From: Ruminococcus sp.
Lineage (GTDB): Bacteria; Bacillota; Clostridia; Oscillospirales; Ruminococcaceae
Length of the DNA: 64,000 nucleotides
Direction: 5' to 3'
Assembly: GCA_017460665.1 (NCBI GenBank)
Contig: JAFUAO010000010.1
Span: 186,001 to 250,000, forward strand
Shown here: in pieces, positions 1,358-13,978 of the stretch
Numbering within the stretch: the first letter of the stretch is position 1
Layout of the letters: each line of letters starts with the position of its first letter
Position numbers and translations under genes: made by a program
The notes under the pieces: model-generated
Told to the model about the DNA's origin: nothing
Databases searched by the model: none
What the model saw: only the letters and a program-made list of their open reading frames with translations

Positions 1358-2557
1358 ATGAAAGAAAAACGAATCTCATTCGGTCAGGGACACGGCTCTC
1401 TGACTCACAATAACAGGGAGTTCGTGGCGGCGAATGTTGACCCACTCCGCACTCCCGATAATATCACTTTCGTGTGTCAGCCGATCGGCGAAGCATACGA
1501 TCAGCTCTTTGCCGAGTCAACAGAAAGATACAATGCTCGGCAGACAAGGAATGACCGCAAGGTACACGGCAGTTACTATGAACACCTCTTTGGTGTCAAG
1601 CCTTGCAGCACCGTCCGTACCGCAGCCGATAAGCGTAAGAGCTTCTATGAAGATGTGGTGCAGATCGGTAAAATGGAAGATTCAGGTATTGGCACGGAGG
1701 ATTTTCAGCTTGTGGCTGAATGCCTAAAAGAGTATATGGAGAGCTGGTCTGCCCGAAATCCCAACTTCTACATTTTTAACGCTGTCCTGCATTTGGACGA
1801 GCAAACACCTCATCTGCACATTGATTACATTCCTGTCGGTCATTACAAGCGAGGGCAGGACGTGCAGAACGGTATCGCTCAGGCACTCAAAGAAATGGGT
1901 TACGGCGAGGGTAAAATGGCTATCGCCCGTTGGAGAGCTGCTGAGGTCGAGGTGCTGAATGCGATCTGCCGTGAACACGGTATTGAACCTCTGCCACCGG
2001 ATAAGTCCAGAGGTACGCTCGAAGTGGCTGAGTACAAGGAACAGCGGCACAAGGCTGACGAGTTGGCAGAGCAGAATGCTCAGGCTGATGCGGAGCTTGC
2101 CAAGAAGAAGGCGGCTATCAAGGCTGCTGGGAAGAAAACTGCCAAACTGACCGAGATCGACAGTATCGAAACAGGTAAGACTATGTTCGGCGGTAAGGTG
2201 ACTGTATCGTCAGAGGATTGGGAGAACGTGACCGCCCTCGCTAAGAAAGAGGTCGCATCTCAGAAGCAAACCAAGAAGCTCCGCAAAGAGCGTGATGAAG
2301 CTGTGCAGGAGCGTGACGAGCTGAAAGCAAAGCTGTCGGCGGTTTCCTCGGAGCTTACCGCCTACAAGAAAGCCGAGGAAGAAAAGGGACTGTTCAGCCG
2401 TGAGAAGCTGAAAAAGGAAGCAAAGCGTATCAGCCGAGAGGACGAACTGTCCCGTGAGTTGAAAAAGGCTAAGGCTTTTATTTCAGCCTGCGGACTGAGT
2501 TCCGACTATCAACAATTCAGATACAACAGCACCACAAGAAAGAATGTGCTGGAATAA
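1358..2557 (+). CDS. MobV-family relaxase (plasmid mobilization/recombination Mob/Pre)
   Basis: This 399-residue protein matches the Mob/Pre relaxase family, which nicks DNA at oriT and pilots the strand during mobilization by a helper conjugation system. The diagnostic segment is HLDEQTPHLHIDYIP near residue 148, holding the HxH metal-binding motif of HUH nucleases. The C-terminal half (about 225-380) is charged and Ala/Lys/Glu-rich with predicted coiled coil, as in the family. The ATG at 1358 follows AAAGAAAGGCG at good spacing. An excisionase-like gene and an integrase follow on the same strand, and no conjugation machinery is seen, so the unit looks like an integrative mobilizable element. 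Composition is lower in GC than the chromosome to the right. Confidence 0.88.
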   Translation: MKEKRISFGQGHGSLTHNNREFVAANVDPLRTPDNITFVCQPIGEAYDQLFAESTERYNARQTRNDRKVHGSYYEHLFGVKPCSTVRTAADKRKSFYEDVVQIGKMEDSGIGTEDFQLVAECLKEYMESWSARNPNFYIFNAVLHLDEQTPHLHIDYIPVGHYKRGQDVQNGIAQALKEMGYGEGKMAIARWRAAEVEVLNAICREHGIEPLPPDKSRGTLEVAEYKEQRHKADELAEQNAQADAELAKKKAAIKAAGKKTAKLTEIDSIETGKTMFGGKVTVSSEDWENVTALAKKEVASQKQTKKLRKERDEAVQERDELKAKLSAVSSELTAYKKAEEEKGLFSREKLKKEAKRISREDELSRELKKAKAFISACGLSSDYQQFRYNSTTRKNVLE

Positions 2558-2602
2558 ACAAGAAACAAAGCAGGGGGAGTACCTGCTATAAAGGAGACTA
2601 TT

Positions 2603-2893
2603 ATGACAACAAACAGAAAGAACGAGCTTATCGCTCAGCTCGTAAGTGTTTTGAGCGAACTGATCGAAACCGATGATTCCGACATTACCAACGATTCCCC
2701 CAGTGCCGTGGAAATGCTCACCATTAAGGAGTGTACCGAAGCAGTCAAGGGGCTGTCTGAACACACCGTCCGTAAGCTGATTACGCAGGGCAAGTTGCCG
2801 TATATGCGTACCGGTGAGGGCAAGAACGGCAAAATGCTCATCAACAAGGTGGATTTACTTAACTACTTCAACGGACAGGCAACAGACAGATAA
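2603..2893 (+). CDS. Excisionase-like helix-turn-helix DNA-binding protein
   Basis: The 96-residue protein ends in an HTH_17/MerR-like excisionase fold: TIKECTEAVKGLSEHTVRKL is the helix-turn-helix, followed by LPYMRTGEG and INKVDLLNYF, a typical beta-wing and C-terminal helix. Proteins of this type bend DNA at att sites and favour excision by a tyrosine recombinase, which is encoded next. About 35 N-terminal residues form an acidic helical extension not needed for the fold. AAAGGAG lies upstream of the ATG. The gene sits 45 bp after mob and is probably co-transcribed with it. Confidence 0.75.
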   Translation: MTTNRKNELIAQLVSVLSELIETDDSDITNDSPSAVEMLTIKECTEAVKGLSEHTVRKLITQGKLPYMRTGEGKNGKMLINKVDLLNYFNGQATDR

Positions 2894-2942
2894 GTCTGTA
2901 CGCTGAAAACGGCGATTTTACGCTTTTTAAGTGTCAACAGAC

Positions 2943-3029
2943 ACAAAATCCAAAAAAACCATAGATTTCTGAATTTAGCTATGGCGCACGAAATGCTGTG
3001 CCATAGCAAATTCAAATCTGGGATTTTGT
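2943..3029. repeat. 87-nt imperfect foldback between xis-like gene and integrase
   Basis: Successive blocks on the left arm, ACAAAATCC, AGATTT, TGAATTT and GCTATGGC, are met in reverse order on the right arm by GCCATAGC, AAATTCA, AAATCT and GGATTTTGT. The folded RNA would form one long interrupted stem. No strong T-tract follows. It could be an attenuator, an RNA-processing site or an integrase arm-binding region. Confidence 0.6.
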
Positions 3030-3048
3030 AAAATATTTAAAATAGGTA

Positions 3049-3077
3049 GTGACAAACAAAGCGAATCATGGTATAAT
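3049..3077 (+). promoter_or_regulatory. Promoter for leader peptide and integrase
   Basis: GTGACA (3049-3054) and TATAAT (3072-3077) are 17 bp apart, and TGG directly before the -10 makes it an extended -10 element. Integrase can thus be transcribed separately from mob and the xis-like gene. Confidence 0.65.
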
Positions 3078-3114
3078 AGATGTACGATATATTCGCTGTC
3101 GGAACGGAGGTTAT

Positions 3115-3162
3115 ATGTTTAAGACAGTGAACACCGTGACCGTAAAGGCGGTGGCGGTATGA
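3115..3162 (+). CDS. 15-codon leader peptide coupled to integrase
   Basis: ATG at 3115, preceded by GGAGG at 3106-3110, opens a frame encoding MFKTVNTVTVKAVAV. Its TGA (3160-3162) overlaps the integrase ATG (3159-3161) as ATGA. The integrase has only a modest ribosome site of its own (GGCGGTGGCGGT), so the peptide may serve to feed ribosomes to int by translational coupling. The peptide resembles nothing known to me; its value may lie only in being translated. Confidence 0.5.
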   Translation: MFKTVNTVTVKAVAV

Positions 3163-4352
3163 ATATACAGGAGCGCAGAAACAAGGACGGTAAGATCACA
3201 TCGTACCGTATCAGAGTGTTCGACCACAGGGATTCTCAGACAGGCAAGCAGATTTTCAGAACGTTGTCGGTCAAGTATAATCCCGAAAAGAGTGAAGCGT
3301 GGAATAAGAAAAACGCCGAAAAACAGGGCATTATCTTTGAGAAACAGATTGAGGAACAGACAATCACGGACTCCCACATCACTTTCGATAGTTACTGCGA
3401 ATATGCTATCAGGATAAAGGAGCAGGCTGGACTTTCCCCCTCGACCGTGTACACCTACAACGGTTATCGTCAGCGTGTTTCGCCGTATATCGGGCATATA
3501 CAGCTCAAAAAGCTTACCCCTGCGGCAATCAACAAGGCATATTCCGAAATGCTGAGTAACGGAGTATCTAAGGTGAGTGTGTATCAGTATCACCTGTTCA
3601 TTCACTCTATGCTTGCAATGGCTTTCAAGGAGAACATTATCCCTCGCAACTACGCAAGTGCAGCCACTCCGCCAAAGAAAGAGCAGAAAGAGGTCAACGC
3701 ACTTTCCGAGGACGAGATCAACGCATTTTTCAACGCTCTGTATGCTGACAAGAAGCACTATATGTATCAGGTATTGTTCAGCGTTATGCTTGCAACAGGC
3801 TGCCGTATCGGTGAGATTTGTGCCTTGACTTGGGATAACATCGACTTTGAGAACAACTGTATTCACATCTGCAAGCACTTTATCGTTGACAAGTCGGGTT
3901 CTCATATTCAGGACGGTTGCAAGACGAATGCGGGAGACCGCCTACTCACTATGGACAGCGGTATCATGGATATGCTCAAAGAGTATCGGGAGTATTACAG
4001 CAAGACCGCCGAGCGTTACGGCAGCAAGTGGCACTATGAGGAAAATGCTGTTTTCTTTTCTCAGAAGAAATACGGCACATTTCTGAATCCTGCAACAGCA
4101 AGAAGCTGGCTGAACAGCTTCACCCAAAAGAATGGTCTGCCGAAGATACACCCTCATATGTTCAGGCACACGGCTGTGAGCTTGCAGTTACAGGCAGGTA
4201 TCAGTATTACCGATGCCGCCAAAAGAGCAGGACACGCCCGTCCCGATGTGACTTTGAGGATTTACTCGCACACACTGAAAAAGAATGACTTGCATTGCTG
4301 TGAAGCAGTCACAAAGGCAATGCCAAAAATGCCGAAGCGTGAAACAAGTTAA
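3159..4352 (+). CDS. int: Tyrosine site-specific recombinase (integrase)
   Basis: The 397-residue protein has the three-part layout of Tn916-like integrases: an N-terminal arm-binding domain (about 1-60), a core-binding SAM-like domain (about 70-165) and the catalytic domain (about 175-385). Catalytic residues are recognisable: the first Arg in TGCRIGEI, the HMFRHTA box (HxxR), the His of GHARPDVT and the tyrosine nucleophile in LRIYSHT. The protein should integrate and excise the element that carries the TIR and mob genes. It is the last gene before composition shifts to the host chromosome, as expected for an integrase next to the element end. Start choice rests on the overlap with the leader peptide. 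Confidence 0.93.
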   Translation: MNIQERRNKDGKITSYRIRVFDHRDSQTGKQIFRTLSVKYNPEKSEAWNKKNAEKQGIIFEKQIEEQTITDSHITFDSYCEYAIRIKEQAGLSPSTVYTYNGYRQRVSPYIGHIQLKKLTPAAINKAYSEMLSNGVSKVSVYQYHLFIHSMLAMAFKENIIPRNYASAATPPKKEQKEVNALSEDEINAFFNALYADKKHYMYQVLFSVMLATGCRIGEICALTWDNIDFENNCIHICKHFIVDKSGSHIQDGCKTNAGDRLLTMDSGIMDMLKEYREYYSKTAERYGSKWHYEENAVFFSQKKYGTFLNPATARSWLNSFTQKNGLPKIHPHMFRHTAVSLQLQAGISITDAAKRAGHARPDVTLRIYSHTLKKNDLHCCEAVTKAMPKMPKRETS

Positions 4353-4475: not shown

Positions 4476-4504
4476 TTGCTTTTTCTGTGTTTATATGGTA
4501 TAAT
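4476..4504 (+). promoter_or_regulatory. Probable promoter of the uvrB-NADAR-uvrA operon
   Basis: TTGCTT (4476-4481), a 17-bp spacer and TATAAT (4499-4504) with TGG before the -10. The transcript would have a leader of about 180 nt before the first gene at 4690. A second extended -10 (TGGTATAAT, 4609-4617) lies closer to the gene but lacks a clear -35. Confidence 0.6.
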
Positions 4505-4527
4505 GTTCGTAAACGAACATTATGTTC
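4502..4527. promoter_or_regulatory. SOS-box-like palindromes at the uvr promoter
   Basis: AATGTTCGT-AA-ACGAACATT (4502-4521) is a perfect palindrome, and GAACAT-T-ATGTTC (4515-4527) is a second that overlaps it. Both begin at the -10 box. The Gram-positive LexA box is CGAAC-N4-GTTCG; here the GAAC/GTTC halves are 5 bp apart, or face the other way, so the match is not canonical. The location before uvr genes makes a LexA-like repressor the first candidate. Confidence 0.45.
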
Positions 4528-4689
4528 TATTTTAATGTCCTCGCAGATACGCTGATCTTCGATCTGCTCCCTGCGATCGGACAATTATACCATATCGCTT
4601 CGCTTATATGGTATAATGTTAAAGTGTCACCCATGCGGTGCGCTTTTACCAAAAGATCACGGCTTTTCGCCATTAAGGAGTTGTTTATA

Positions 4690-5064
4690 ATGAACGGAAG
4701 ACAGAGGATCATCATCTTTGCACAGGCTACTGACGAGGCACCTATCTCCTGCTACGCATACGGCCTTCCTACAGCCGAGGAGTGCCCCCTCAAGGACAAC
4801 GGCTACATGAACGGCAGGGACTTAGGATCATGGATCCTTGCCTCCTTCAAGGCCCTTCCCAGATCCTATGAGTACCCCAGAAAGTTCGTCATGTTCGGCA
4901 TTGTCGTAGGCGAGGCCGCTGCGATCAGCCACATCGCCTATATAAACCCTGCCGGGGACAAGTTCACCCTCAGCACCGTGGAGGAGGCCAACGCCGGCAG
5001 CAATGAAAAGACCCTCATGTTCGACATGGATAACGTCAAGCTCACAAAGCAGCTCAGCCTCTGA
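4690..5064 (+). CDS. Uncharacterised 124-residue protein, first gene of the uvr operon
   Basis: I do not recognise a family. The ATG at 4690 is chosen because AAGGAG lies 9 bp upstream; an upstream in-frame start at 4522 would run through the promoter region. The protein is soluble-looking, starts [18 protein letters not shown], and has no signal peptide, membrane segment or obvious metal motif. It ends 14 bp before uvrB, so the two are co-transcribed. Composition agrees with the chromosome, not with the mobile element. A link to DNA repair is suggested only by position. Confidence 0.8.
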
Positions 5065-5078
5065 TCGGAGGGGATCAC

Positions 5079-7040
5079 TTGGACCATTTCGTTCTTCATT
5101 CTGAATATGCCCCTGCCGGCGACCAGCCTCAGGCTATCCAGAAGCTGGCCGACGGCATACTCTCCGGCAAAAAGGAGCAGATCCTGCTGGGAGTGACGGG
5201 CTCCGGCAAGACCTTCACCATGGCCAACGTCATCGCTAAGGTCAACAAGCCCACCCTCGTCCTGGCCCACAACAAGATACTCGCCGCCCAGCTCTGCTCG
5301 GAATTCAAGGAGTTCTTCCCGGAGAACGCCGTGGAGTACTTCGTTTCATACTATGACTACTACCAGCCTGAGGCCTACGTCCCCAGCACTGACAGCTACA
5401 TCGAGAAGGACTCATCTATCAACGATGAGATCGACAAGCTGAGGCACTCCGCCACCACCGCCCTCGCCGAGCGAAGGGACGTGATCATCGTGGCCAGTGT
5501 CTCCTGCATATACTCCCTGGGAAGCCCCGAGGAGTACCGCTCGATGGTGGTGTCGATCCGTCAGGGCATGGAAAAGCCCCGTGAGGAGCTGATCTCTGAG
5601 CTGGTCAGGATCCGCTATGAGCGCAACGACATCGCCTTTGAGCGTAACCGCTTCCGTGTCCGTGGGGACGTGGTGGAGATCTTTCCGGCCATGTCCAGCG
5701 ATACCGCCGTCCGTGTGGAATACTTCGGCGACGAGGTGGACCGGATCTCTGAGATAAACGTGGTCACAGGCGAAGTGAAGGCCGTCGTGTCCCATGCGGC
5801 GATCTTCCCGGCTTCGCACTACGTCGTGGGGGACGACAAGCTGGAGTCCGCCCTTCAGGAGATCGACAGGGAGCTGGCCGAGCGGATCGACTACTTCACC
5901 GCAAACAACAAGCTGATCGAGGCTCAGCGGATCAAGGAGCGCACCCAGTATGACATGGAGATGATCCGTGAGGTGGGATACTGCTCCGGCGTAGAGAACT
6001 ACTCCCGTGTGCTGGCCGGAAGGCCCCCGGAAAGCACTCCTCAGACCCTCATGGACCACTTCCCCGAGGACTTCCTGCTGATCGTGGACGAGAGCCATGT
6101 GACCCTCCCACAGGTAAGGGCCATGTTCGCCGGGGATCGGGCCAGAAAGACCACCCTTATCGACTACGGCTTCCGCCTGCCCAGCGCTCTGGACAACCGG
6201 CCCCTGAACTTCGATGAGTTCAATGCCCATATCCACCAGGCGATCTACGTCAGTGCGACTCCCGGTCAGATTGAGCGTGAGAAGACCGATACCGTCGTCG
6301 AGCAGGTGATCCGTCCTACGGGCCTTGTAGACCCCGAGATCATCGTCAAGCCCACTCAGGGACAGGTGGACGACCTCCTCAGCGAGATCAATACCCGTGC
6401 CGCTAAGAACGAGCGTGTGCTGGTGACTACTCTTACGAAGAAAATGGCAGAGGACCTGACCTCCTACTACGAGCGCCTCGGAGTGAGGGTCAGATACCTA
6501 CACCATGACATAGACACTATCGAGCGCATGGAGATCATCCGTGACCTTAGGAGCGGAGAGTTCGATGTGCTGGTGGGGATAAACCTCCTCCGTGAGGGCC
6601 TTGATATACCGGAGGTCAGCCTTATCGCTATACTGGACGCCGACAAGGAGGGCTTCCTGAGGAGCGAGACCTCTCTGATACAGACCATTGGCCGAGCCGC
6701 ACGAAACGCCTCCGGTCAGGTCATCATGTACGCCGATACAGTTACCGGCTCCATGGAGCGTGCGATCACCGAGACCGAGCGCCGCCGGAGCTTGCAGCTG
6801 GCCTTCAACCGGGAGCACGGAATCGTTCCCAAGACTATCATCAAGGATATCCGTGACGTGCTGGAGATAACCTCAAAGGCCAAGGTGGAGGAGAAGGCAT
6901 CAAAGAAGAAGATGTCCGCAAAGGACAAGCAGGAGCTCATCGAGAAGCTGACTGCCGAGATGAAGAATTCGGCAAAGCTGCTGGAATTCGAGCACGCCGC
7001 ATACCTGCGTGACAAGATAAAGGAGCTTAAAGGAGAATGA
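5079..7040 (+). CDS. uvrB: Excinuclease ABC subunit B
   Basis: UvrB is the damage-verifying helicase-like subunit of nucleotide excision repair; it is loaded by UvrA and later binds UvrC. The 653-residue length is standard. Walker A is GVTGSGKT near residue 40, followed by the beta-hairpin region with [12 protein letters not shown] near 92, Walker B region LIVDESH near 335, helicase motifs GRAARN near 545, and a C-terminal UVR motif ([14 protein letters not shown]). The start is TTG at 5079, five bases after CGGAGGGG; UvrB proteins begin at about this point. Its last four bases overlap the NADAR gene. Confidence 0.97.
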
Positions 7041-7600
7041 GATACGATATCCAGGCTATCCGCCTGAGACATGATCTGGGCGAGAAAATGAAGTTCATCT
7101 TTTTCTGGGGACACAAGCCCATGAGCGGCGGCTCGGTAGGAAAGACCTGCCTGAGCCAGTGGTATGACTGCCGCTTCACCGTGGACGGGACAGAGTTCCA
7201 CACCGCCGAGCAGTACATGATGGCTCAGAAGGCCCTGCTGTTCGGGGACAAAAAGATCTATGCGGAGATCATGGCTGCCTCAGACCCCGGCGCTTACAAG
7301 GATCTGGGAAGAAGGATCTCAGGCTTTGACGAGAAGGTGTGGGAGCAGCACCGCACCGAGATAGTCATTGCCGGGAACATGGCCAAGTTCGGCCAGAACG
7401 AAGAGCTCAGGGACTATCTTCTCGCCACTGAGAAAAGCGTGCTGGTGGAGGCCTCGCCCTACGACAGGATCTGGGGGATAGGCCTTTCCGCCGATACGGA
7501 GGGCATAGAGGACCCCTACATTTGGAAGGGCAGTGACCTGCTGGGCTTCTGCCTAATGGAAGTCAGGGACAGACTAAAGGAGGACCCGGATGCGAGATAA
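7037..7600 (+). CDS. NADAR-family protein within the uvrBA operon
   Basis: The 187-residue protein carries the NADAR/YbiA fold: FFWGHKP near residue 22, [26 protein letters not shown] and late RIWGIGL. Family members cleave N-glycosidic bonds; YbiA acts on riboflavin-pathway intermediates, and the NADAR domain of DarG1-type antitoxins removes ADP-ribose from guanine in DNA. The ATG at 7037 overlaps the uvrB stop (ATGA), but GGAG is unusually close to it; an internal ATG at 7088, just before the conserved core, is a possible alternative start. The 3' end overlaps uvrA by 11 bp. Such tight coupling on both sides suggests a job tied to excision repair, for example reversal of DNA ADP-ribosylation; this is inference. 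Confidence 0.9.
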
Positions 7601-10412
7601 GATCATCATCAAGGGCGCAAGAGCCAACAACCTAAAGAACATAGACCTTGAGCTCCCACGGGACTCGCTGATCGTCATGACCGGACTGTCAGGCTCGGGA
7701 AAATCCTCCCTGGCCTTCGACACGATCTACGCCGACGGCCAGCGCCGCTATGTGGAGAGCCTTTCGTCTTATGCGAGGATGTTCCTCGGTCAAATGGAGA
7801 AGCCTGACGTTGACAGCATCGAGGGGCTCTCCCCTGCTATCTCTATCGACCAGAAGACCACCTCAAAGAACCCACGCTCCACTGTGGGCACCGTCACCGA
7901 GATCTATGACTACCTGAGACTGCTCTACGCAAGGATCGGCGTGCCTCACTGTCCGGTCTGCGGAAGAGTGATCTCTCAGCAGTCGATCGACCAGATAGTG
8001 GATACGATCATGGAGCTCCCCCAAGGCAGCAGGATACAGCTCCTTGCGCCTATCGTCAGGGGAAGGAAGGGACAGTACGTCAAGGAGCTTGACTCCGCAA
8101 GGCGCTCAGGCTTTGTCAGGGTCCGGGCCGACGGGATCATGTATGAGCTCACCGAGGAGATCAAGCTGGACAAGAACAAAAAGCACAACATCGAGATCGT
8201 GGTGGACCGTATCATCGTCAAGGAGGGCATAGAGTCAAGGATCACCGACTCCCTCGAAACGGTGTTCAAGCTGACAGACGGCCTTGCGATCGTTGACGTG
8301 GTGGACGGGGACGAGATCCTCTTCTCCCAGAACTACGCCTGCCCTGAGCACAATATCAGTATAGGCGAGCTGGAGCCGGTGATGTTCTCGTTCAACAACC
8401 CGATCGGAGCCTGCCCTAAGTGTACAGGTCTGGGAGTTTTCCGGCGGATCGACCCGGATCTGATCATCCCCAACAAGGACCTGTCGATCATGGACGGTGC
8501 GATCAAGGCCTCCGGCTGGAACAGCCTTGACGAAACGTCGATCTCCACCATGTACTACAAGGCGATCTCCAAGAAATACGGGATCCCGATCGACGTGCCT
8601 GTAAGAGAGCTCAAAAAGGAACAGCTCGACATATTCCTCTACGGAACAGGCAGCGAGACCCTTGAGCTGAAAAGGCCTAAGTCCCTGGGCGGAGGCAAGT
8701 ACACCACGCCCTTCGAGGGGATCATCAACAACCTTGAGCGCCGCTACCGTGAGACCAGCAGCGAGTACTCCAAGGCAGAGATCGAGGAGTGCATGAGCGA
8801 GGTGGACTGCCCGGAATGTCACGGAAAAAGGCTCCGGGACGAGTACCTTGCTGTCACTGTGGGCGACCGGAACATAAGCTCCCTCACGGACCTTTCCGTA
8901 AAGGGCGCTCTGGACTTTTTCAAGCAGATCAAGCTCACCAAGCAGGAGACCTTCATCGGTGAGCGCATAATAAAGGAGATCAATGAGAGGCTGGAGTTCC
9001 TCAGCAGCGTGGGCCTGGACTACCTGACCCTCTCACGGTCATCAGGGACCCTCTCCGGCGGCGAGAGCCAGCGTATCAGGCTCGCCACTCAGATCGGTTC
9101 CTCCCTTGTGGGAGTGCTGTATATTCTGGACGAGCCCAGCATAGGCCTCCACCAGAGGGACAACGACAAGCTGATCGCCACTCTCAAGCGCCTGCGTGAC
9201 CTTGGGAACACCCTGATCGTGGTGGAGCACGACGACGACACCATGCTTGCGGCGGACTACATCGTGGACATCGGCCCCGGCGCAGGCGTACACGGCGGCG
9301 AGGTGGTGTTCTCCGGCACAGTGGATAAGCTGCTCAAATGCAAGAGCTCCATAACGGGCGCCTATCTCAGCGGCAGGAAGAAGATCCCCGTTCCCAAAAA
9401 GCGCCGTGAGGGCAGCGGTCACTTCCTCACCGTCCACGGGGCATCCGAGCACAACCTGCAAAACATCGACGTTCATATCCCACTTGGGAAATTCATCTGC
9501 GTTACGGGAGTTTCCGGCAGCGGAAAGTCCTCTCTGGTCAACGAGATCCTGTACAAGGAGCTGGCCGGGAAGCTGAACCGTGCCAAGATCCGTCCGGGAA
9601 AATTCGCCTCTATGGAGGGCCTCGAGGAGCTGGACAAGGTGATCTGCATAGACCAGTCCCCTATCGGCAGGACTCCCCGGTCGAACCCGGCCACCTACAC
9701 CGGAGTCTTCTCCGACATCCGTGATCTCTTCGCAAAGACCAACGACGCAAAGGCCCACGGCTACACCAGCGGAAGGTTCTCCTTCAACGTCAAGGGCGGC
9801 CGCTGTGAGGCCTGCGAGGGCGACGGCATGATCAAGATCGAGATGCACTTCCTGCCGGATATCTACGTTCCCTGCGAGGTCTGCAAGGGCCGGCGGTATA
9901 ACCGTGAAACGCTGGAGGTCCACTACAAGGGCAAGTCGATCTACGACGTGCTGGAGATGACGGTGGACGAGGGCGTGGAGTTCTTCGAGCACCTGCCCAA
10001 GATCTCACGGAAGCTGAAAACTCTGCAAAAGGTAGGCCTTGGCTACATCAAGATCGGCCAGCCTGCAACGACCCTCTCCGGCGGCGAGGCCCAGCGTGTG
10101 AAGCTGTCGACGGAGCTCTCAAAGAGAGCAACAGGCCGCACGATCTATATTCTGGACGAGCCCACTACAGGCCTCCATTCAGCCGACGTCCACAAGCTCA
10201 TAGATGTGCTCCAGGAGCTGACCGATCAGGGCAACACCGTGCTGGTCATCGAGCACAACTTGAACGTGATCAAGGTCGCCGACCACATCATCGACTTAGG
10301 TCCAGAGGGCGGCGACGGCGGCGGTACGATCGTGGCACAGGGAACTCCCGAGGAGGTGGCCCAGTGTCCTGAGTCCTACACCGGCCAGTACCTCAAGCCC
10401 TACCTTGGATAA
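7590..10412 (+). CDS. uvrA: Excinuclease ABC subunit A
   Basis: UvrA is the dimeric ABC-type ATPase that finds helix-distorting damage and loads UvrB. At 940 residues it is full length. Visible landmarks are Walker [10 protein letters not shown] near residue 32, zinc site CPVCGR near 118, first signature LSGGESQR, second Walker [10 protein letters not shown] near 640, second zinc module [19 protein letters not shown] near 740, signature LSGGEAQR and Walker [11 protein letters not shown]. The start is the ATG at 7590 after AAGGAGG. It is the last gene of the operon and is followed by a terminator. Confidence 0.97.
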
Positions 10413-11185: not shown

Positions 11186-12388
11186 TCACAGCAGCCCAAG
11201 GGCTTCCTTTTTTTCAAGGATCCTCAGGACGCTCTCGTCGATCCTTTCCTCGGAAAGGGCCCCGGAGCTGACAGCGTCCTCCACACCGCTGACGGCAGCC
11301 GGAAGATCCGCCGGCATGAGGATAATGTCGATCCCGGCGCTGATGGACATGACGGCAGCCTGTCCCGGCGGATAGACGCCTGCCACGGCTCCCATGGAAT
11401 GAGAGTCGGTGACGGCGATCCCCTCAAAGCCCAGATCTCCTCTGAGCCAGTCGGTCACCACCACCGGCGACATATCTCCCGGGAGCTCCTGTCCGGAGCC
11501 GGTCGTGATCTGGTGGCCCACCATGACGAAGTCCGCTCCGGCAGCGATCCCGCCGCCGAAGGCCGTGAATTCCACTTCCTTTAGCTGCTCGTAGGTCCGG
11601 TCGATCACAACGGTCCCGTAGTGGGTGTTGCCGCTGCCGGCTCCCAGCCCGGGAAAGTGCTTCAGAGTGGCGCAGATCCCGTTTTCGTGGAGGCCCTCCA
11701 CCACCGCAGCAGACATCTCCGCCACGGTATTCGGGTCCTCGCTGAAGATCCGGTTGCCCAGCTCGTTCTCCCAGCTCAAATTCACATCGGCCACCGGAGC
11801 AAAGTCCAGGCTGAACCCCAGCTCGGAAAGATAGCCGCCGATCGTTTCCCCGGCAGCCTTAGCACGCTCAGGATCGCCGCTCTCGCCGATCCACCTCATG
11901 CTGTCGACAGCGGCCGTGCCAAGGCTCTGGCTGACCCTGGCAACGGATCCGCCCTCCTCGTCGACGCCCATGAAAGCGCCGATCCCCTGCTCCATGGCGG
12001 AGCTCTGCATCTCTGAGATCAGGGCGGAGAGCTGCTCCTGAGAGGTCATGTTCTTTGCAAAAAATATAAATCCCCCAACGGGGTATTCGGCGTAGCTGAG
12101 CATATTCTGGTCATCGCTCCAACTAAGCACATCGTGTCCTGCCAGGGCCTCCGGCACGACGATGAACAGCTGGCAGACCTTCTGGTGAAGGCTCATCTGG
12201 CTCAGCCTCAGCTCCGCCTTTGTGGGAGGCTGGGTCGGCGGCTCGGTAGGAGGCTCTGTGGGAGCCTCTGTGGTGGGAGCTTCTGTGGGCTCAGCCATTG
12301 CAGGGACAGCGCTGTCCGCCTGTCCCACCGGATCTGCACAGCCCGTCAGCATCAGCAGGGCGGCTGCCGCAGCAAGGATCCTCCTCAT
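11186..12388 (-). CDS. GH3 family lipoprotein (NagZ-like beta-N-acetylhexosaminidase)
   Basis: A 400-residue lipoprotein: signal peptide with lipobox LTGC (Cys17), a Pro/Thr/Glu linker of APTEPPTEPP type (about 33-55), then a single GH3 TIM-barrel domain. The NagZ hallmarks KHFPGLGAGSGNTH and nucleophile-containing AVTDSHSMGAV are present. NagZ-like enzymes release GlcNAc from muropeptides or chitin-like glycans; being anchored outside, this one probably works on peptidoglycan. The alternative is a wider beta-glycosidase. It overlaps the upstream DUF5662 gene by ATGA and forms an operon with it and the LacI regulator. Confidence 0.9.
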   Translation of the reverse strand: MRRILAAAAALLMLTGCADPVGQADSAVPAMAEPTEAPTTEAPTEPPTEPPTQPPTKAELRLSQMSLHQKVCQLFIVVPEALAGHDVLSWSDDQNMLSYAEYPVGGFIFFAKNMTSQEQLSALISEMQSSAMEQGIGAFMGVDEEGGSVARVSQSLGTAAVDSMRWIGESGDPERAKAAGETIGGYLSELGFSLDFAPVADVNLSWENELGNRIFSEDPNTVAEMSAAVVEGLHENGICATLKHFPGLGAGSGNTHYGTVVIDRTYEQLKEVEFTAFGGGIAAGADFVMVGHQITTGSGQELPGDMSPVVVTDWLRGDLGFEGIAVTDSHSMGAVAGVYPPGQAAVMSISAGIDIILMPADLPAAVSGVEDAVSSGALSEERIDESVLRILEKKEALGLL

Positions 12389-12930
12389 TTGCAGCGCCCC
12401 CTTCTGACCTGCCTTCTGATGAAGCGGAAGGTGTAGTCCTCGCCCTTATCGGCCAGCATCCTCAGCAGATACTCAAGCCTTGCGGCGGTAGTTTTCTCGA
12501 TGATACGGTCGTGCTTTGCACGGAGAAAATACTCCAGCGGGCTCCTGTCAGTGTAGTTCTCCCCCATGTAGATCTTAGATGCGGCGACCCTGTCACAGAA
12601 CATCTCGAAGAGGTACTGGTCCGGCATACGCACAGGCTCCAGACGCTTGGTAACGGTGCTGTAGTCGGTCCAATACTCGAAGTGGTGGCGGTTGCGGCCC
12701 TTGTGGTGCATCCACGCCCGTGAATAGCCCAGCACCTCACGCTCACGCTCGTTGGGGCTGCGGTCCCCCTGATAGTAGAGGACTCCCGGGATGAACTCAG
12801 TAGGCGAGAATTTCGACAGATCGTGAAGAAGGCCTCTGCGGAATATCCCTGCCTTGAAGCAGTGGCGCATGACCGTGTGGCGGTGCCTTGTGACGGTCCG
12901 CAGGTGGCCGAAAAAGTTCCTAAAAAGCAT
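12385..12930 (-). CDS. DUF5662 family protein
   Basis: The 181-residue protein fits DUF5662 of Firmicutes: HCFKAGIFRRGLLHDLSKFSPTEF near residue 24 and WMHHKGRNRHHFEYW near 75. The His/Asp-rich motifs (HD in LHDLSK, HH and HHF) look like a metal site of an HD-type hydrolase, but no activity is known to me. The start is the ATG at 12930, directly after AGGAGG; a GTG 18 bp earlier overlaps that ribosome site. It overlaps the end of the LacI gene by 11 bp and the GH3 gene by 4 bp, so translation is likely coupled. Confidence 0.85.
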   Translation of the reverse strand: MLFRNFFGHLRTVTRHRHTVMRHCFKAGIFRRGLLHDLSKFSPTEFIPGVLYYQGDRSPNEREREVLGYSRAWMHHKGRNRHHFEYWTDYSTVTKRLEPVRMPDQYLFEMFCDRVAASKIYMGENYTDRSPLEYFLRAKHDRIIEKTTAARLEYLLRMLADKGEDYTFRFIRRQVRRGRCK

Positions 12931-13978
12931 TTGTGTCCTCCTGTTCACCGTAGCCTCCGCTCAGGTCGAGAACGCTGTTCTTCTCGATGAGCCGGCCGCT
13001 GATGATGACTCTCCCCACGGAATAGGAGGGGTCCTCCAGCTTCTTCACCATGAGGTCGACGGAAGCCGCTGCCATTTTCCCAAGGTCCACCTCGACTGTA
13101 GTGATCGTCGGTATGCAAATGCTGGAAACGGTGTAGTTGTCATAGCCCACCACCGAGATGTCCTCCGGCACCCTCACGCCCTTTGAGCGCAGGGACGAGA
13201 TCACACGGAAGGCGGTCTCATCGCAGTTGCACACGAAGGCCGTAGGCAGCTCGTCGGGGAATTCGATGTGGTCAAGGAAGACTGCTCTGCCGGAGCGGTC
13301 GTCCAGAGTCCACTCTTTGCGGTACTCCAGGTCGTTCTCCATAAGGCATTTTATGTAGCCGAGGAAGCGGTCGTTGATGCTGCTGGTAGCGTTGACTGTT
13401 CCCACGAATCCGATGTTCCGGTGGCCTCTTTCCACAAGGTAGTCTGTCAGGATATAGCCGCCGTGGAAGCTGTCAGAGTTCACCGAATCCACGTTGAAGC
13501 GATTGTCGTAGAAGTCCACGAAGACCAGCGGCAGATCCACCTGACTGATCCTGCGGATATACTTCCGGCTGACCTGACCGATGATGATCACGCCGTCCAC
13601 CTTGTTCTCGGCGATCATATTCGGAAGGGCCGCCGCCCGCTCGTTTTCGGCGGTTATGCACTCGTACACCGTCATGACGCTCATAGCCGAGAGCTTGTTG
13701 GAGATATTCGCCGTCAGCTCCCAGTAGAAGGTGCCCCTTGCGCCCACGAAGCGCTCAGAGGTCAGGATACCGATGTTCCTGCCCAGCTTCGGCAGAGGCT
13801 CACGGCGCTTCCCGGCCTTGGTATTCGACGGCCTGTAGCCCATTTCCTCGGCTGTCTGACAGATCCTGCTTCGCATCCGAACGCTGACTCCGTCACGGCC
13901 GGCAAGGGCATTTGAGACAGTCACCACGCTGACGCCCAGCTTATTGGCGATGTCGATCATTTTGACTCCGTTTTTCAT
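12920..13978 (-). CDS. LacI/GalR family transcriptional regulator
   Basis: The 352-residue protein has the LacI N-terminal HTH (VKMIDIANKLGVSVVTVSNAL, residues 4-24), the hinge (RICQTAEEMGYRP) and a periplasmic-binding-protein-like effector domain from about 60 on, with TAFVCNCDETAF and DISVVGYDN motifs. It should be a sugar-responsive repressor or activator. It is the first gene of a three-gene operon with DUF5662 and the GH3 lipoprotein, which suggests that it controls its own operon, perhaps in response to an amino sugar. The start follows GAGGTGG. Confidence 0.93.
   Translation of the reverse strand: MKNGVKMIDIANKLGVSVVTVSNALAGRDGVSVRMRSRICQTAEEMGYRPSNTKAGKRREPLPKLGRNIGILTSERFVGARGTFYWELTANISNKLSAMSVMTVYECITAENERAAALPNMIAENKVDGVIIIGQVSRKYIRRISQVDLPLVFVDFYDNRFNVDSVNSDSFHGGYILTDYLVERGHRNIGFVGTVNATSSINDRFLGYIKCLMENDLEYRKEWTLDDRSGRAVFLDHIEFPDELPTAFVCNCDETAFRVISSLRSKGVRVPEDISVVGYDNYTVSSICIPTITTVEVDLGKMAAASVDLMVKKLEDPSYSVGRVIISGRLIEKNSVLDLSGGYGEQEDTNAF

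Follow-up and report, generated by a model that had tools for sequence, protein, structure and literature searches.

Between uvrB and uvrA on a 64,000-nucleotide stretch of a Ruminococcus sp. genome (contig JAFUAO010000010.1, positions 186,001 to 250,000; hereafter the window) lies a gene for a NADAR-domain protein that overlaps both of its neighbours (Table 1). The genome that holds the window, G000, carries it in its contig 59. Here, we describe a known protein family in a new gene arrangement, uvrB-NADAR-uvrA, whose order is conserved in part of one genus, and we weigh what a stand-alone NADAR protein may do beside nucleotide excision repair (NER). The NADAR start codon (ATG, 7037–7039) overlaps the uvrB stop codon (TGA, 7038–7040) by 4 bp, and the uvrA ATG at 7590 sits in the final codons of NADAR, whose own stop codon occupies 7598–7600, an overlap of 11 bp. 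Both overlaps had been described in an earlier sequence-only reading of the window and are borne out by the sequence. The start at 7037 is preferred over an internal ATG before KFIFF because relatives keep M1 and Y3, which are invariant in 20 aligned rows including the window; relatives also carry an N-terminal segment, ‘MKYxxxxI...’, ahead of the FFWGH motif.

The junctions were compared in a table of 24 loci, made up of the window and 23 others. The spacing from uvrB to NADAR is −4 to +3 nt in 22 of these, with outlying values of 11 nt (L102) and about 106 nt (L131), and the exact 4-bp overlap is found in two (the window and L106). NADAR overlaps uvrA by 1–11 nt in 21 loci; in the other three, 9, 10 and 12 nt separate the two genes. 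In 19 loci, the 16 nt ahead of the uvrA start contain a GGAGG. The AGGAG that precedes NADAR in the window is just one base from the ATG, so that re-initiation is likelier there than a normal start. The junctions fit translational coupling of NADAR with uvrB and uvrA, and the three genes are probably co-transcribed.

Table 1 Features of the uvrB-NADAR-uvrA locus, in window coordinates.
Feature	Position	Strand	Basis
uvrB (TTG start), upstream partner	5079..7040	+	NF003673 UvrB, 1081.8 bits
NADAR-domain protein, 187 aa, Glu-type (E138)	7037..7600	+	PF08719, 183 bits
uvrA, downstream partner	7590..10412	+	NF001503 UvrA, 1554.7 bits
ATGA overlap of NADAR start codon and uvrB stop codon	7037..7040	+	sequence, junction table
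11-bp overlap, uvrA start within the NADAR 3' end	7590..7600	+	sequence, junction table
AAAGGAGG, Shine-Dalgarno-like site of uvrA inside the NADAR coding sequence	7576..7583	+	sequence
Short open reading frame directly 5' of uvrB	4690..5064	+	sequence; containing frame 4522..5064 without a Pfam or NCBIfam match

Within the genus, a NADAR match is found in 54 of 125 genomes (53 above the cut-off), and the surroundings of all 64 matches were viewed, over approximately 1.5 kb per side for 30 and over 3–4 kb, contig permitting, for 34. Both uvr neighbours are present in 24 of the 125 genomes (L001–L018, L020–L024 and L026). Together with two loci at contig ends (L025 and L250) and one divergent case (G066, locus L238), this places NADAR at uvrB/uvrA in 27 genomes. 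Searching with uvrB in 30 congeners without a known uvr-linked NADAR, we found uvrA 4–525 nt after uvrB in 14 (11 of them within 110 nt); in 15, uvrA was not seen in the approximately 1.5 kb downstream of uvrB, and the remaining genome is G066. We also scanned 84,980 species, one genome each, by sequence pattern and kept the best 80 of 120 relatives as named loci; 23 of these show the order with both neighbours and two more are cut by a contig end. The named-locus and genus counts overlap, as they come largely from the same assemblies, and are not independent. The nearest named locus found, L102, is from the Ruminococcus flavefaciens assembly RUG10602. The sequence-only reading had proposed searching other genomes for the order, and it is kept in some two dozen. 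In L277, one of the loci from the wider phylum described below, a weak hit (28% identity) against the ABC portion of UvrA about 3 kb from NADAR was set aside as most likely another ABC protein.

The window protein matches Pfam PF08719 with 183 bits (cut-off 35.1) over the entire profile (1–163 of 163), and TIGR02464, ‘riboflavin biosynthesis intermediates N-glycosidase’, with 169 bits (cut-off 73.7). Among solved structures, the best match is the NADAR protein of Phytophthora nicotianae (8bau, 88.7 bits), compared with 48.5 bits for E. coli YbiA (2b3w). Eight residues are named as ADP-ribose contacts in the P. nicotianae protein, namely E43, K50, R79, W89, R93, E125, D130 and W133 (PMC11543638; this and the papers below are cited for the sections available to us). 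All eight are identical in the window protein when aligned to 8bau_A, as E58, K65, R92, W102, R106, E138, D143 and W146, a mapping that assumes an inferred two-residue numbering offset of the PDB chain. Seven of the eight are invariant in 20 rows, with R106 varying; R92 also varies in 31 more diverse rows, and E138 is invariant in both sets. E138 corresponds to the catalytic Glu of YbiA-type proteins, at which DarT1-linked antitoxins carry Asp, and the window protein therefore departs from DarG1 in this feature. The window protein is most likely a catalytically competent stand-alone NADAR.

Like the window protein, the P. nicotianae NADAR is stand-alone and Glu-type and has the same eight contacts, but it is eukaryotic, has a longer insert before the last helix and belongs to no repair operon that we know of. 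It hydrolyses guanine-ADP-ribose (PMC11543638). E. coli K-12 YbiA shares the family and the catalytic Glu, whereas its first 46 residues are unmatched, it is shorter before the last helix, it is not in a uvr operon and it is annotated for riboflavin intermediates. In a tree built without other YbiA-type or DarT1-linked references, YbiA formed a very long branch (3.94) and served as the root. DarG1, the antitoxin of DarTG1, is of the same superfamily and would share the reaction class if the explanation favoured below holds; unlike the window protein, it has Asp for Glu and is encoded with DarT1, which was not found here. A further parallel, likened by description rather than by sequence, is the E. 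coli NADAR of the sigma70 operon (rpsU-dnaG-rpoD; PMC11125620), which is also stand-alone, 187 aa long and in a core housekeeping operon, although a different one. The sequence-only reading had named as damaging to itself a tight grouping with YbiA joined to a gene order confined to this strain; instead, the order recurs in other genomes, and of the two solved structures YbiA is the one further removed. In G066, the uvrB/uvrA slot holds an open frame (L238:3577–4161, minus strand) that starts and ends like its kin and in which alignment places Ala for E58, Gln for K65 and Asp for E138. This protein, seen in one assembly only, is probably an inactive remnant or a pseudoenzyme.

Relatives of the window protein occupy several settings, which were named after inspection, and repair-gene settings are hence given as plain counts. 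The best 80 named loci comprise 25 uvrBA, 1 NADAR-uvrA, 3 recN-NADAR, 19 glyA-NADAR-prs-rarA, 12 gltX and/or glnS and 20 other loci. Here, glyA, prs, rarA and recN were assigned by tblastn with annotated proteins, and the gltX/glnS class by protein clustering, with Pfam on L127 and L162 only. The relatives after recN (3 of 80) and before uvrA (1 of 80) show 54–58% identity. In the NADAR-uvrA locus (L168, the G226 region) the two genes are 23 nt apart, and the recN-NADAR loci are L147 (the L065 region), L159 (the L067 region) and L163, with recN on L065 matching TIGR00634 at 497.5 bits. In L147 and L159, recN and NADAR overlap by 4 bp, and tlyA and nadK are found upstream. The replication-repair gene rarA is parted from NADAR by prs, and in several glyA loci approximately 0.8–0.9 kb separates NADAR from prs. 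NADAR is therefore adjacent to core repair genes at two well-separated places, uvr and recN, and perhaps at a third, uvrA alone in another genus, but it also adjoins housekeeping genes outside repair. The 20 other loci, which were annotated only in part, include neighbours of a NUDIX-NrtR gene as well as NADARs that are joined by fusion to a CTP_transf-NADAR protein or stand in tandem with one.

Domain fusions occur in proteins from the same genus, family and order that are distinct from the uvr-linked proteins. PARG_cat_microb, ADP_ribosyl_GH and NADAR are joined in one 844-aa protein (G519; L204:3593–6124, plus strand), Macro and NADAR in L088, L090 and L096, and Macro, NADAR and ADP_ribosyl_GH in L098 (4339–6501, minus strand). 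In congeners, NAD synthase is fused to NADAR in L239 (2921–4063), L242 (271–1428) and L245 (2459–3601), all on the minus strand. These fusions tie the NADAR superfamily here to ADP-ribose and NAD chemistry.

The NADAR gene is held by purifying selection and mostly evolves faster than uvrB and uvrA. Omega (the ratio of nonsynonymous to synonymous change) is 0.053–0.186 for NADAR (computable in 13 of 16 locus pairs), 0.031–0.078 for uvrB and 0.032–0.098 for uvrA (15 pairs each), with several values of synonymous divergence (dS) above 1 and near saturation. Between the window and L106 the order is kept although synonymous sites are saturated (proportion of synonymous differences, pS, 0.88–0.95). 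Between the window and L102 (4743–5303), identity is 66.3% for NADAR compared with 97.1% for uvrB and 95.5% for uvrA, and because dS is 1.41 for NADAR against 0.54 in each flanking gene, the occupant of the slot has probably been exchanged for another NADAR allele. A single origin of the uvrBA location is not supported: the 26 uvrBA rows need three changes on a 125-row tree or four on a careful 60-row tree. On the latter, a single uvrBA clade is rejected only marginally (approximately unbiased test, p-AU 0.036; 0.048 once the uvrA-only row joins it). In the 125-row tree, a quick one with 43 of 122 forks weak, the recN, glyA-prs-rarA and gltX/glnS rows form one group each, and the glyA-prs-rarA group falls within the uvrBA rows. 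Context labels were fixed before the trees were built, and the 60-row set was picked after seeing the 125-row tree; L068 and L168 are the same region and entered as one row, and the divergent G066 protein was left out.

The genes adjacent to NADAR are uvrB and uvrA, and a toxin-antitoxin pairing was not found. DarT (PF14487) had no match anywhere in G000, which is 92.9% complete and in which other ADP-ribosyltransferases were not searched for. Three of the 125 genomes of the genus do have a match, all outside the group of 27 with a uvr-linked NADAR. The sequence-only reading, which saw no DarT-like toxin beside the gene, was right on this point.

The explanation that we favour, at about even confidence, is that this stand-alone, Glu-type NADAR strips ADP-ribose off guanine, as a direct-reversal partner of excision repair. 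The enzyme would hydrolyse the N-glycosidic bond that joins ADP-ribose to guanine in DNA, and possibly in RNA too, providing a direct-reversal route parallel to NER, which would otherwise excise the same bulky adduct. Given that no DarT was found in the cell, the adducts would stem from foreign ADP-ribosyltransferases (of competitors or phages), from a transferase that the cell itself encodes but that has escaped recognition, or from chemistry related to NAD. In this account, we infer that the three genes share a transcript and coupled translation, that the enzyme acts on DNA and where the adducts come from.

Published work on related systems is consistent with parts of this mechanism. Four E. 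coli and phage NADAR subtypes, YbiA included, strip ADP-ribose from guanosine in vitro, and the roles of stand-alone NADARs outside DarT operons are stated as unclear (PMC11125620). NADARs also act on guanosine in RNA (PMC11833690). In E. coli, ADP-ribosylated DNA is repaired by NER: cells that lack uvrA survive such modification less well, and UvrB is recruited to it (PMC7003065). The ybiA gene is described within a LexA-controlled operon (PMC11125620); in the K-12 record (L182) it is beside dinG, on opposite strands, and YbiA thus resembles the repair-linked window NADAR in adjoining a DNA-damage gene. A search of the open literature turned up no report of a NADAR gene within a uvr operon. 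The term ‘uvr’ is absent from PMC11125620, PMC9503650 and PMC11833690, and ‘uvrA/uvrB’ from PMC11543638.

Several observations weigh against this explanation. In the family, a profile match is found in 43 of 396 genomes, and of the 43 matches outside the genus, 1 of the 38 examined adjoins uvrA (G226). At the level of the phylum, NADAR is found at E <= 1e-10 in 16 of 398 genomes, the window's included, and none of the other 15 has uvrA or uvrB beside it. The uvr setting is not the only one, with 19 of the 80 named loci in the glyA-NADAR-prs-rarA class, 12 in the gltX/glnS class and 20 other or unassigned. The G066 slot protein has lost E58 and K65 yet retains its open frame, RibA is present in G000 and leaves room for a riboflavin role, and scans upstream of uvrB, described below, demonstrated no shared SOS operator. 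YbiA and phage NADARs gave cells no protection against DarT1 despite their activity in vitro (PMC11125620), so that the fold does not reveal what a NADAR acts on in the cell. What PMC7003065 shows for NER applies to a lesion of the DarT2 type, which is on thymidine rather than guanine.

The proposal of the sequence-only reading, a repair enzyme working beside excision repair, hence stands in part. It agrees with the conserved order, the kept catalytic and ADP-ribose positions, purifying selection, the lack of a DarT match, the relatives at recN and uvrA and the fusions to ADP-ribose erasers. Exclusive work with NER is the part that is not supported: relatives are also found in glyA-prs-rarA, gltX/glnS and NAD-related settings, and because they occupy such other housekeeping operons NADAR need not be NER-exclusive, and its exclusive devotion to NER is unlikely. 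‘Beside excision repair’ most likely means joint expression with uvrBA in part of the genus rather than a dedicated NER factor.

Of the alternatives, the one that survives best, although we regard it as unlikely, is riboflavin damage control, in which a YbiA-type N-glycosidase would destroy reactive early riboflavin intermediates and merely ride in the uvrBA transcript. Both the TIGR02464 score, well over its cut-off, and the YbiA-type catalytic Glu fit this, and an attempt to exclude it by absence of the pathway failed, given that RibA turned up in G000 as well as in 110 of the 125 genus genomes. Co-occurrence gives it no favour, however, with RibA in 22 of the 27 genomes with a uvr-linked NADAR compared with 88 of the 98 others (several genomes are incomplete). 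A relative with 59% identity in G124 is located approximately 1.5 kb from ribBA, but on the opposite strand and with a HAD gene between, and ribBA is nearby in only 1 of the 80 named loci, in which flank lengths vary and ribBA was the sole rib probe. The more distant structural match to YbiA also speaks against it.

Somewhat more doubtful is clean-up of soluble NAD or ADP-ribose derivatives, as metabolic housekeeping or as an anti-signal, with no action on DNA. One paper favours small ADP-ribose derivatives as the targets of phage NADARs (PMC9503650), and among the loci collected here this explanation would account for the NAD synthase fusions, the fusions to a CTP_transf_like (nucleotidyltransferase) domain (L169, L172, L178 and L179) and the NUDIX-NrtR neighbours (from Pfam on L157 and from clustering for L128, L172 and L181). 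The NAD synthase fusions are divergent (30–34% identity), but the NADAR within the CTP_transf fusion of L172 is a fairly close relative (53%), so that some weight stays with this explanation. It leaves the placement beside uvrA/uvrB and recN unexplained.

We give still less credence to hitch-hiking, in which a mobile housekeeping gene settles in tight operons and its position in uvrBA has no functional meaning, retained perhaps through a dependence of uvrA translation on it. Such a gene would be expected at several unrelated tight sites, as seen in the 4-bp recN overlap, in glyA within a few nucleotides at several loci and in uvr; the uvrA ribosome site is inside NADAR, a probably inactive NADAR persists in one species (G066), and the dS contrast between the window and L102 looks as if the occupant had been swapped. 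In contrast, the other NADARs keep their catalytic residues with omega well under 1, and of 30 congeners that lack an ordinary uvr-linked NADAR, 14 have uvrA following uvrB at the distances given above, so that uvrA does not need NADAR. NADAR also adjoins uvrA or recN in two other genera (G226; G503 and G471). Least probable of all, in our judgement, is that in Ruminococcus UvrA and UvrB have NADAR as a third, lesion-specific partner, to which UvrAB hands over damage and which erases ADP-ribosyl-guanine in place.

Control by the SOS response was sought upstream of uvrB. The palindrome TGTTCGTAAACGAACA (window 4504–4519) was rejected as a uvr-specific operator, since its five perfect sites in the genome fall in copies of an interspersed repeat. 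By eye, this repeat is approximately 125 bp long (window ~4490–4625; L183–L187), and the perfect-palindrome sites are in full or part copies of it. The LexA consensus GAACnnnnGTTC served as the lead. In a second scan, of 48 congener loci that did not include the window, exact copies of the box GAAAANNTGTTC precede uvrB in 18, 8 of 21 with NADAR and 10 of 27 without; the box is absent from mononucleotide shuffles, the motif having been chosen from the same data. It is mostly located at −74 to −119 of uvrB (L107, L112, L113, L115–L118, L143, L209, L210, L223 and others). GAAMATATGTTC occurs at 20 loci in three genomes, at uvrB once per genome, and the other reading frames downstream of it include no SOS genes recognisable by eye. 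In eight genomes, the 220 nt ahead of lexA, which may lie inside an operon there, showed no copy of GAAAANNTGTTC; a LexA family match was found in all 10 genomes tested, two of them weak.

The short open reading frame directly 5' of uvrB is possibly the first gene of the uvr transcript. The longer frame that contains it (4522–5064) has no match in Pfam or NCBIfam, and a similar frame can be read before uvrB in L102. Relaxase-like, small HTH-like and tyrosine-integrase-like frames (1358–4352), judged from their translations, suggest an integrated mobile element a short way upstream of the uvr genes. On the minus strand, 12385–12948 encodes a DUF5662 protein (PF18907, 135.7 bits).

The placement of NADAR between uvrB and uvrA, with relatives behind recN and before uvrA, makes a role for stand-alone NADARs directly testable. 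The arrangement predicts that ADP-ribosylated bases would be genuine DNA damage in bacteria where DarT was not found, and that their direct reversal and their excision repair would be expressed together. If the third-partner arrangement were true, NER would have a direct-reversal branch, and guanine ADP-ribosylation would be a routine DNA lesion in gut and rumen communities. The gene occurs in some gut and rumen Ruminococcus, in which its retention by selection and the lack of a neighbouring toxin gene suggest a DNA-cleaning role.

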